A stretch of DNA of 64,000 bases from Thiotrichales bacterium (GTDB lineage Bacteria; Pseudomonadota; Gammaproteobacteria; HK1). The position numbers and the translations under genes are program-made. The notes under the pieces are model-generated. The model made no database searches and was not told where the DNA came from. It saw only the letters and a list, made by a program, of their open reading frames with translations. Shown in pieces: positions 9,896 through 62,114 of this stretch (within the stretch, counting starts at the first letter, position 1; every line of letters starts with the position of its first letter). The DNA lies in NCBI GenBank assembly GCA_026709935.1, contig JAPOSC010000013.1, positions 1 through 64,000 of the forward strand, read 5' to 3'.

Positions 9896-10525
9896 ATGAC
9901 GACACAGGCCGTACAGTTGACCCTGTACCGCTGGGCGGGGCAGTGGGGTCCGTGGAAAGTCAACATCCTTTGTGGTGAGTGCTCACTTACGACAGATGTC
10001 ATCAATGACACTCTCGAGAACGAGCTCGATGGCATTCCGGTCGAGGTCGACATCCGGGAGTGGCTCAGCGAGTGGTGGAAGCCGCTCCCGAAGGGCGGCT
10101 GGCATGCCCCGATCGTGATGGTCGAAGGCAAGGTCGTGAGCCAGGGCCACGCCCTGAACCGCGGCGTCCTCACCGAGGCGATCATCGCCGCACACGTGGG
10201 CCGCAGCGGGGTGTCCGGAAACCACCTCTACGGCAAGGTAACCTGCCCGCACTGCACGCGGGCGAAGGGGTACTTCGCCGATGCGGGCATCGATTACACG
10301 TATCACGACGTGGTCCGGGACCCGCGCGCGCTCTACGAGATGATCGGCCGGGTCAAGCCCATCGTCGGGCCGAAGACGCCGATCACCGTGCCCCAGATCT
10401 GGATCGACGGAAAGTACATGGGAGGCGCCGATGAACTCGGCCGGTTCCTGGGCCTGAACGTGGAGCCGAACCGCGAGCGAGGCCAGAACTCCATGACCGA
10501 CAAGCCCCACCTCGCCAGCTCCTGA
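9896..10525 (+). CDS. Tandem thioredoxin-fold protein: CGEC domain plus C-terminal glutaredoxin domain
   Basis: 209 aa with two thiol-redox modules. The N-terminal half has CGEC at 26-29 after a strand, then WHAPIVMVEGKVVSQG with a candidate cis-Pro72. The C-terminal half (about 108-186) is a clear glutaredoxin: YGKVTCPHC (Cys117/Cys120), VRDPRALYEMIG, the TVPQIWIDGKYMGGADEL cis-Pro and GG glutathione-binding block, then helix. No signal peptide, so it is probably cytoplasmic. The C-terminal domain call is firm; the N-terminal domain as a second thioredoxin fold is my reading. Preceded by gggagacgtaccg before ATG. Confidence 0.8.
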   Translation: MTTQAVQLTLYRWAGQWGPWKVNILCGECSLTTDVINDTLENELDGIPVEVDIREWLSEWWKPLPKGGWHAPIVMVEGKVVSQGHALNRGVLTEAIIAAHVGRSGVSGNHLYGKVTCPHCTRAKGYFADAGIDYTYHDVVRDPRALYEMIGRVKPIVGPKTPITVPQIWIDGKYMGGADELGRFLGLNVEPNRERGQNSMTDKPHLASS

Positions 10526-54832: not shown

Positions 54833-57058
54833 ATGCCTATCCTGCTCGGAATCGATACCGGCGGTACGTATACGGACGCGGTGCTGTATGACGAAGCGTC
54901 CGGGCGGGTCGTCGCCGCGTCGAAGGCGTTGACGACCCGCCACGACCTCGCGGTGGGCATTCGAGGTGCGGCGGCATCGGTGCTGGAGGGTTCGGGTGTC
55001 GATCCCGCGACGATCGCGCTCGTCTCGCTCTCCACCACGCTGGCCACCAACGCGCTCGTCGAGGGCCAGGGCGGGCGCGTGGGTCTGGTGCTGATCGGCT
55101 TCGACGAAGCCGCCGCATCGAGGGGCGGCATTGCCGAGGCGCTGCGGGGCGACCCCTGCATCCGGATCGGCGGTGGCCACGATGCGGCAGGCCATCCGTG
55201 CGAGGCACTTGATCTCGCCGCCCTCGATCGAGCGCTTCCCGGGGTTGCAGACTCCGCCGACGCATTCGCGGTGGCCGGGATGTTCGCGGTGCGCAACCCG
55301 GAGCACGAGATCGTGGTGCGCGACCGCTTGCGCGAGCGCACCGGCCGGCCGGTGACGTGCGGCCACGAGCTTTCGAGCCGGCTCGACGGGCCGCGCCGCG
55401 CGATGACCTGTGTGCTGAACGCCCGGCTCGTGCCCATCATTCAGCGCCTGCTGGAAGCGGCGGATCGTTCGTTCCGCGCTCTGGGGGTCTCGGCGCCGAC
55501 GATGGTGGTCCGCGGCGACGGGGCGCTGGTCGGGGCGGAGGTCGCGCGCCTGAAACCGGTGGAGACGATCCTCTCCGGCCCCGCCGCGAGCCTGGTGGGC
55601 GCGTCCCACCTGACCGGAGAGCGCGACGCGCTCGTCTCCGATATCGGAGGCACGACGACGGACTACGCGCTGCTCGCCGGCGGTCGTCCTCGAATCGACG
55701 CCGACGGCGCGACCGTGGGTGGATTCCGCACCATGGTGGAGGCGGTGGCGATGCGCACCGTCGGGCTCGGAGGCGACAGCGAAGTGCGATGGGAGGCGGG
55801 CGGCGGCGGTGCCGGTGGCGCTGGTGGCGCCGGGAGCGACCAGCGACTGCTGATCGGGCCGCGCCGGCTGGTGCCGCTTTCGCTGCTCGCGACCGAGTAT
55901 CCGGATCTGGTGACGAACACCCTGGAACGGCAATGCGCCGGACCACGGCGCGGCGGCGACATCGGCCGGTTCGCGCTGCGCGTCGATGCGGCTGGCCCAA
56001 TCCCCAGCTTGGTCACTGGCTCGGTCACCGACCCAATCCCCGACCCCGCCGCCGGTCCAATCACTGATCCAGTCACCGACCCAGTCACCGACCCAGTCAC
56101 CGACTTGGTCGCCGGCTCGGGCTCAGCCAGGAACGTCTCGACTCCGACTTCGGCCGTCACCGGCCCAATTCCTGGCCCGGCCGCCGGCCGGGTTGCCGGC
56201 GCATCCAGCCGTCGCGAGGCGATGCTTCTCGATCGTCTGGAGACCGCCCCGGTCCCGCTCGACCGGCTGCTGGAATCGCAGGCCGAGAGTGGTGCGCTCG
56301 AATCGCTGATCGGGCGCGGGCTGGTCATCCTCTCCGGCGTGACGCCGTCCGACGCCGCGCACGTTCTGGGGATCCAGGACACCTGGGATGCGGACGCAGC
56401 GCGGTCCGGCGTGTCGCTGTTCGCCGAACAGCTCGACAGCCGAGGCGTCGCCATCGCCCCCGACGCACGGGTCATGAGCCGGGCCATCGTCGATGCGCTC
56501 GTCGAGCGTTCCGCCGAGACCCTGCTCGACGCTGCCTGTGAGCACGACGGACACGGCCATGCCGACCTCGGCCGGTATCTGCTGCGGGCCGCCTCGAAAT
56601 CGCCCGAGCGGGCACTCGTCGGCTTCTCGGTGCGACTCGACCGGCCCGTCATCGGGCTCGGCGCTCCGGCTCCCGCCTACTACCCGGCGGTGGCCGCGCG
56701 GCTCGGCACCCGTGCTGTGGTGCCGGAGCACGCCGGAGTCGCGAATGCGGTGGGTGCGGTCGTGGGGCGTGTCCGTATCCGGGCCACGGGAACAATCACC
56801 ATGCCGGACGAAGGGTGGTTTCGCGTGTTCGCGGGTGCGGGTCCGCGGGACTTCTCCGACCCGGAGAGCGCCACCGCGTACGCGCGGAGCGTTCTGGAAG
56901 CCGAGGCCCGCGAGGGCGCGGCCGATGCCGGCGCCGGAGAGGTGGACATGTCGATCGAGCGGCGCGATACCGTTGCGGTCGTGGGGGGCCGGGAGATGCT
57001 GGTGGAGAGCACGGTGACCGCAGTCGCATCGGGCCGGCCGCGCTTCGCCGCTGATTGA
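54833..57058 (+). CDS. Hydantoinase/oxoprolinase family protein (HyuA-like)
   Basis: 741 aa. The N-terminal sugar-kinase-like fold has LLGIDTGGTYTDAVLYD, LVSLSTTLATNALVEGQGG and DIGGTTTDYALL for nucleotide binding. Family members hydrolyse hydantoins, 5-oxoproline or N-methylhydantoin with ATP; others are acetone carboxylase subunits. The C-terminal half keeps VGFSVRLDRPVIGLGAPA but is interrupted by an Asp-Pro-Val-Thr-rich repeat (about 400-470). No HyuB partner gene follows. Whether it is active alone is unclear. Confidence 0.8.
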   Translation: MPILLGIDTGGTYTDAVLYDEASGRVVAASKALTTRHDLAVGIRGAAASVLEGSGVDPATIALVSLSTTLATNALVEGQGGRVGLVLIGFDEAAASRGGIAEALRGDPCIRIGGGHDAAGHPCEALDLAALDRALPGVADSADAFAVAGMFAVRNPEHEIVVRDRLRERTGRPVTCGHELSSRLDGPRRAMTCVLNARLVPIIQRLLEAADRSFRALGVSAPTMVVRGDGALVGAEVARLKPVETILSGPAASLVGASHLTGERDALVSDIGGTTTDYALLAGGRPRIDADGATVGGFRTMVEAVAMRTVGLGGDSEVRWEAGGGGAGGAGGAGSDQRLLIGPRRLVPLSLLATEYPDLVTNTLERQCAGPRRGGDIGRFALRVDAAGPIPSLVTGSVTDPIPDPAAGPITDPVTDPVTDPVTDLVAGSGSARNVSTPTSAVTGPIPGPAAGRVAGASSRREAMLLDRLETAPVPLDRLLESQAESGALESLIGRGLVILSGVTPSDAAHVLGIQDTWDADAARSGVSLFAEQLDSRGVAIAPDARVMSRAIVDALVERSAETLLDAACEHDGHGHADLGRYLLRAASKSPERALVGFSVRLDRPVIGLGAPAPAYYPAVAARLGTRAVVPEHAGVANAVGAVVGRVRIRATGTITMPDEGWFRVFAGAGPRDFSDPESATAYARSVLEAEAREGAADAGAGEVDMSIERRDTVAVVGGREMLVESTVTAVASGRPRFAAD
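56066..56113 (+). repeat. In-frame 12-bp tandem repeat in the HyuA-like gene
   Basis: Units gatccagtcacc, gacccagtcacc, gacccagtcacc and gacttggtcgcc encode repeated DPVT. Related but more degenerate copies lie just upstream (from about 56010). The repeat lengthens a loop that other family members lack. Confidence 0.8.
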
Positions 57059-61413: not shown

Positions 61414-61600
61414 GTCGGGTCGCCCCCATGCGAGGCATGGATTCGCGCCGCGTGTCGCCATACAGTTGCGTGGCGGGGCGCAGGTCCAAGTCTTCGAGCT
61501 TCAGGGTCTTCTCGAGCTTGTTCGGGCTCGTTTCCGGATTCGGGCATGATGACCCCCGCCCGCGCGCCATCCGGGGTGCGGACAATCACAGGAGCAGGTC

Positions 61601-61945
61601 ATGAGCACACAGATCAACTGGTACTACTTCCGCAAGGGGTGAACAAGCTGCAAGAAGGCATCCGACTTCATGGATGCCCATCGTCTCGTGCCAGACGATG
61701 TCATGCTTGCCTCGAAGAAGCTCGGGCGTGACGCCGCCGCCGCGCTCGCGCGGGATTGCGACACCCTGATCGTCGCCAAGGGGAAGAATGTCACGACCTT
61801 CGCGGTCTCCGGACACCCCGGCGAAGATGCGGTGGACGCAATGTTGGGTCCGACCGGCAACCTGCGCGCACCGACGGTGCGATCGGGCCGGACGTTGCTG
61901 GTGGGCTTCAACGAGGAGCAGTACGCGGCCGTCCTCGCCGGCTGA
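61601..61945 (+). CDS. Selenoprotein: ArsC/thioredoxin-fold protein with U-T-S-C motif (UGA read as Sec)
   Basis: 114 aa if the TGA at 61640-61642 (codon 14) is read as selenocysteine. The start reads MSTQINWYYFRKG-U-TSCKKAS, with U14-x-x-C17 where ArsC/Spx-like proteins carry Cys. The rest continues in the same frame as a full thioredoxin-like domain (KKLGRDAAAAL, DTLIVAKGKNVTTFAV, RSGRTLLVGFNEEQY) and ends at TGA 61943-61945. An aggag lies seven bases before ATG 61601. A 7-bp hairpin (listed separately) starts 14 bases after the UGA. It would otherwise be annotated from the internal ATG at 61670, losing the redox centre. NCBI has an 'ArsC family (seleno)protein' name, consistent with this reading. 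Redox role inferred. Confidence 0.85.
61657..61678 (+). promoter_or_regulatory. Bacterial SECIS-like hairpin after the UGA codon
   Basis: Bases 61657-61663 (ggcatcc) pair perfectly with 61672-61678 around an 8-base loop that begins with G. The loop begins 21 bases after the UGA. These features match the known bacterial SECIS pattern (apical loop 16-37 bases after UGA, G in the first two loop positions), which recruits SelB. Confidence 0.75.
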
Positions 61946-61969: not shown

Positions 61970-62058
61970 AGGAGTCCCGCCGCAAGGCGGGGCGGGGATC
62001 GAGAAGTCCCGTCGCAAGATAGGGCAAAGGCCGGGAAGCCCCGCCACAAGGCGGGGCG
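61970..62058. repeat. Three degenerate hairpin repeats between convergent genes
   Basis: A unit like ggagtcccgccgcaaggcgggg occurs near 61971-61992, again degenerate near 62012-62034, and near 62035-62057. The first (61976-61981 with 61986-61991) and third (62038-62045 with 62050-62057, 8 bp) form perfect stems with 4-base loops. They may serve as a bidirectional terminator between the selenoprotein and the permease genes. Confidence 0.6.
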
Positions 62059-62114
62059 GAGCCTTGGTTGGCAGCGGCGAGTTCGTGAGTGCCGGCTCGG
62101 TCAAGCCGCTCGTT

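Follow-up and report, generated by a model that had tools for sequence, protein, structure and literature searches.

A probable selenoprotein gene of the ArsC-related family NF041106 in a Thiotrichales bacterium

The gene at positions 61601–61945 of the window (the whole stretch of 64,000 nucleotides that was analyzed) very probably encodes a bacterial selenoprotein, in which UGA 61640 is read as selenocysteine (Sec). By computation, we found an intact reading frame, a conserved UGA codon, a downstream hairpin, the Sec machinery in the same genome, and a thioredoxin-type fold. SelB and Sec-tRNA(Sec) would decode UGA 61640 as Sec, helped by the hairpin, which starts 14 nt downstream. The first-pass annotation had proposed a hidden selenoprotein with a U-x-x-C site, and each of its suggested tests that was run came out in favor of this proposal.

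Reading frame, UGA codon, and relatives

From ATG 61601, 13 codons lead to the in-frame TGA 61640–61642, which is followed by 100 open codons and a TGA stop (61943–61945). The read-through product contains 114 amino acids and begins with MSTQINWYYFRKG-U-TSC-KKASDFMDAH..., the UGA lying within a U-T-S-C motif. The main features are as follows:

61590–61594, + strand: Shine-Dalgarno sequence AGGAG, 6-nt spacer to the ATG, read from the sequence
61601–61945, + strand: selenoprotein coding sequence (114 aa plus stop), NF041106 ArsC_rel_Se_1, 107.9 bits against a cut-off of 85, start Met shared by homologues
61640–61642, + strand: UGA codon for Sec14, TGA in 15/15 distinct homologues
61649–61651, + strand: Cys17, resolving residue of the UxxC motif, invariant in 16/16
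61657–61678, + strand: bSECIS hairpin, 7-bp stem, loop 61664–61671, UGA-to-loop distance 21 nt, from folding, family conservation, and recoding (limits in PMC13188914)
61835–61876, + strand: codons of the near-invariant DAMLGPTGNLRAPT block, with the cis-Pro-type P91 after Ala90 (Arg in ArsC and Spx), from alignments

The features that the first-pass annotation had described, a 13-codon start with its own Shine-Dalgarno joined through TGA 61640 to the downstream frame, are thus at the positions claimed for them, and the homologues start at the same Met. Its expectation that the product would align with ArsC family (seleno)proteins was borne out by a match to the NCBIfam profile NF041106 ("ArsC family (seleno)protein") over its entire length (107.9 bits, profile positions 1–107 of 107; curated cut-off 85 bits). 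The match to Pfam ArsC (PF03960) is marginal, at 23.7 bits for a gathering score of 24.

To collect relatives, we scanned one genome per species with query peptides devoid of the UGA codon, which gave 17 loci. Two distant Cys-type Bacillaceae proteins and one truncated contig end were left out, L067 and L018 were counted once because their identical selA coordinates indicate that they are apparently the same MAG, and L068, from the same genus as the window, was added. The resulting 15 distinct full-length homologues, from Proteobacteria, Myxococcota, Acidobacteria, and other MAGs, are 51–85% identical to the window protein and, together with it, make up 16 members, all of which score in NF041106. 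Every one of the 15 has a TGA at the Sec14 codon, shares the N-terminus, with a conserved dozen residues ahead of the UGA, and carries a hairpin in the same position. An in-frame UGA at a conserved redox position, with coding sequence and conserved flanks on both sides, was thus found in 15 distinct homologues; as the TGA falls at exactly this codon and the protein is conserved on either side of it, the observation goes beyond chance.

These data bear on two other readings of the locus. A mechanical ORF is indeed present at ATG 61670 and lacks the UxxC motif, as the first-pass annotation had said of the start that a gene caller would choose. That this ORF represents an ordinary 91-aa protein, preceded by an accidental UxxC, is nevertheless highly improbable: 15 homologues conserve the first 23 residues, which include beta-strand 1 and UxxC, and the truncated form reaches only 67.8 bits against NF041106, below the cut-off of 85, and would be left without strand 1 or the fold's active site. 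The start at 61670 is refuted by the conserved residues encoded upstream of the UGA. A pseudogene or sequencing error turning a Cys (TGC/TGT) or Trp (TGG) codon into TGA needs a single base change, but it is the least credible reading and is refuted by the conserved sequence and the conserved TGA, as the 15 distinct homologues, which come from several phyla and assemblies, share this TGA, no family homologue has Cys or Trp at this codon, and the remaining frame is intact.

The distribution of the selenoprotein family was examined in overlapping samples of 369 class, 55 relative, and 398 phylum genomes. Only three sampled genomes, that of the window and two others from its genus, contain a protein passing the NF041106 cut-off, each with one internal TGA, and the sub-threshold matches are Cys-containing ArsC/YffB/Spx-like proteins with a Cys aligned at the Sec position. 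We saw no Cys form within the family in the sampled genomes or among the homologues. The family therefore is sparse and appears to be Sec-only in these samples. The gene is patchy even inside one genus, since two other genomes of the window's genus (G370 and G372) have selA and no family member. No relatives were found among viral contigs and plasmids.

The downstream hairpin and the genomic Sec machinery

The hairpin at 61657–61678 (GGCAUCC-GACUUCAU-GGAUGCC) has seven perfect pairs and an 8-nt loop with G in first position, and its RNA fold is more stable than those of dinucleotide shuffles (z = −3.18). Published limits for bSECIS elements are a loop of 3–9 nt, a stem of 4–16 bp, a G in the first two loop positions, 16–37 nt from UGA to loop, and a minimum free energy of at most −7.5 kcal/mol (PMC13188914). 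With an 8-nt loop, 7 bp, a leading G, 21 nt, and −12.6 kcal/mol, the window hairpin falls within all of these, in agreement with the earlier description of a perfect 7-bp hairpin with a G-started loop at the right distance.

An ungapped alignment of the 16 sequences also gave a consensus seven-pair stem, in which 84% of stem cells are paired versus 29–34% for slid versions. Covariation is modest, with one pair taking G–C, C–G, and A–U forms and four pairs invariant. Both-sided changes occur at only one stem pair, no more than shuffles give; the covariation score exceeds that of 497 of 500 shuffles. Because the stem is coding, we used as a control synonymous recoding of each sequence with local codon usage. 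The window hairpin is matched by 2.2% of recodings (p = 0.022), and each of the 16 natural hairpins exceeds the mean stability of its own recoded versions. The combined p of about 1e-7 is too optimistic, as the p values of individual members lie between 0.007 and 0.35 and the members are related to one another. L027 and L030 each have one broken stem pair and a weak local hairpin (−7.3 kcal/mol). The apical loop region (61664–61671 in the window) reads GAC, GAU, or GCA in the window's genus and AGU or GGU in most other members, so that the loop of this genus starts with GA or GC and departs from the common G[G/U] pattern. An Rfam scan of the window gave nothing above gathering thresholds, which says little given the diversity of bacterial SECIS elements.

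Other repeated or paired elements occur in the window. Directly 3′ of the SECIS stem and within the coding sequence, a second perfect hairpin of 8 bp (61679–61700) is identical in L018 and shows one G–U type change in L068, both from the window's genus, and is not evident in the other homologues. Just after the gene (61976–62059), CCCGCC[G/A]CAAGGCGGGGCGG occurs as an exact pair 64 bp apart, each copy a GC-rich hairpin, with a decayed copy in between; absent from the other fetched loci, these could be a REP-like element or a terminator. Further upstream, a 12-bp tandem repeat, GTCACCGACCCA (56024–56104, 6.8 copies), encodes a D-P-V-T-type repeat within a hydantoinase/oxoprolinase-like ORF (54833–57058).

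A selenoprotein in this genome had been predicted to imply selA, selB, selC, and selD elsewhere, the absence of selB or selC counting against it, and all four genes were found. A selC–selB–selA cluster on contig 68 comprises a tRNA-Sec (73.6 bits; tRNA-SeC with anticodon TCA according to ARAGORN), selB (351.6/404.6 bits), and selA (577.4 bits), and selD is on contig 51 (304.7 bits). Among homologue-bearing genomes, selA was found in 13 of the 14 tested; the remaining one, being a MAG, may be incomplete. A second gene with an in-frame UGA, PrdB/GrdB-like and with a U-P-V-C motif, is located on contig 13 of the window's own genome (G000; about 72146–72148, minus strand; 1063–2061 in L086); it matches PF07355 and TIGR04483 (149 bits, below its cut-off), and a stable fold (−19 kcal/mol) lies just downstream of the UGA. 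The genome thus appears to use its Sec system for at least two genes. Formate dehydrogenase was rejected as a further selenoprotein of this genome, as its matches contain no TGA. Within the window, a protein of 209 aa (9896–10525, + strand), whose C-terminal part is a glutaredoxin domain (PF00462) and which contains a CPHC motif, weakly matches UXX-star selenoprotein families and has no UGA.

Fold, key residues, and putative function

In structure, the product belongs to the ArsC/Spx/YffB superfamily: it has one thioredoxin-fold domain, with UxxC at the N-terminus of helix 1. In the AlphaFold model built from the family alignment (mean pLDDT 92.8), U14 immediately precedes helix 15–26. Among solved structures, its fold is closest to those of Spx complexes, YffB, and ArsC-related proteins (TM-scores near 0.55), and profile searches agree with the fold search on Spx/YffB-type relatives. 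Residues 55–68 are modeled as a beta-hairpin, in place of which ArsC and Spx have a helical region. ArsC/YffB/Spx-type proteins have a Cys at the Sec position, so that the superfamily Cys aligns with residue 14, in support of the earlier placement of the UGA at the catalytic Cys of a C-x-x-C.

Downstream, Arg89 is invariant and is followed, just before the conserved proline, by an Ala90 present in 16/16 members. The position before this proline is Arg94 in ArsC (PMC3169414) and Arg92 in Spx (PMC2801614). The ArsC triad Arg60/Arg94/Arg107 is reported to be essential for arsenate reduction (PMC3169414); of this triad, the Arg94 equivalent was compared. As all 16 members have Ala for this Arg, "arsenate reductase" is probably a misnomer. 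The thioredoxin/ArsC-like domain of the first-pass annotation thus holds as regards the superfamily fold, whereas true arsenate reductase activity is unlikely.

A role as a glutaredoxin-like selenol oxidoreductase seems likely, in which the protein would cycle between a selenol/thiol form and a Sec14–Cys17 selenenylsulfide, in the manner of glutaredoxins and thioredoxins. A more specific proposal, which we hold only tentatively, is that within the ArsC/Spx fold this family forms an obligate-Sec branch, with no Cys form, the superfamily arginine lost, and a distinct beta-hairpin; it might then be a Sec-only redox enzyme or sensor with a substrate unshared with ArsC, Spx, and YffB. Comparing the ORF families near homologues revealed no conserved gene neighborhood pointing to a specific function: neighbors are shared only by very close relatives, and the two wider groups are generic (PQQ dehydrogenase and short-chain dehydrogenase) and at varying distances.

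The protein is probably neither an Spx-type transcription factor nor an arsenate reductase. With the same reading of the gene, an Spx/MgsR-like redox-sensing regulator with Sec as the first residue of the CxxC switch would be an improbable alternative, as although the best solved-structure matches, by sequence and fold, include Spx bound to the RNA polymerase alpha-CTD, the score against TIGR01617 is 24.5 bits for a cut-off of 75.05, Ala replaces Spx Arg92, and Gram-negatives are reported to lack the alphaCTD Tyr that Spx contacts (PMC2801614). A true selenium-dependent arsenate reductase, which implies the same reading of the gene, is slightly less plausible still. Its superfamily fold, its name, and a Pfam ArsC score of nearly the gathering value speak for it, but Ala occupies the ArsC Arg94/Spx Arg92 position in all members, the protein matches Spx and YffB better than ArsC, no neighbor families are common to the loci, and none of the window neighbors tested is an ars gene.

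Comparison with known systems

The family is already catalogued, and the window gene is a further member. A 2008 GOS survey lists "Arsenate reductase 2, UxxC" (PMC2398784), likely the same family as NF041106; a 2022 review lists "Arsenate reductase-like protein, UxxC" (PMC9312934), and a 2026 review places the same entry under accession NF041106 (PMC13188914). The gene opens no new class, and its family is not an undiscovered one. What this analysis adds is that the family is apparently Sec-only in the sampled genomes and that Ala replaces the pre-proline Arg in 16/16. It also confirms, from raw sequence, a selenoprotein gene whose product standard gene calling would shorten; the Sec system of the genome looks complete. 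As a small and apparently Sec-only family of putative function, found in uncultured bacteria of several phyla, it offers a sensible case for studying what selenium contributes to the ArsC/Spx fold.

With NF041106 ArsC_rel_Se_1, the window protein shares a whole-length match above the curated cut-off, the UxxC position, and Sec encoded by UGA; nothing essential differs, and its genus contributes a departing SECIS loop. Spx/MgsR (TIGR01617; PDB 1z3e, 6gho) has the same superfamily and fold and a CxxC aligned with UxxC, whereas the window protein is far below the cut-off and has Sec for Cys, Ala for Arg92, and the beta-hairpin 55–68. YffB (PDB 1rw1, 2kok), a small putative glutathione-dependent thiol reductase, has the same fold, but the fetched YffB-type relatives mostly have a single Cys in N-C-D-T where the window protein has UxxC, and the window protein has Ala for the Arg before Pro. 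ArsC (E. coli; PF03960) belongs to the same superfamily and its catalytic Cys aligns with Sec, while the window protein lacks an Arg94 equivalent and scores just under the Pfam gathering threshold.
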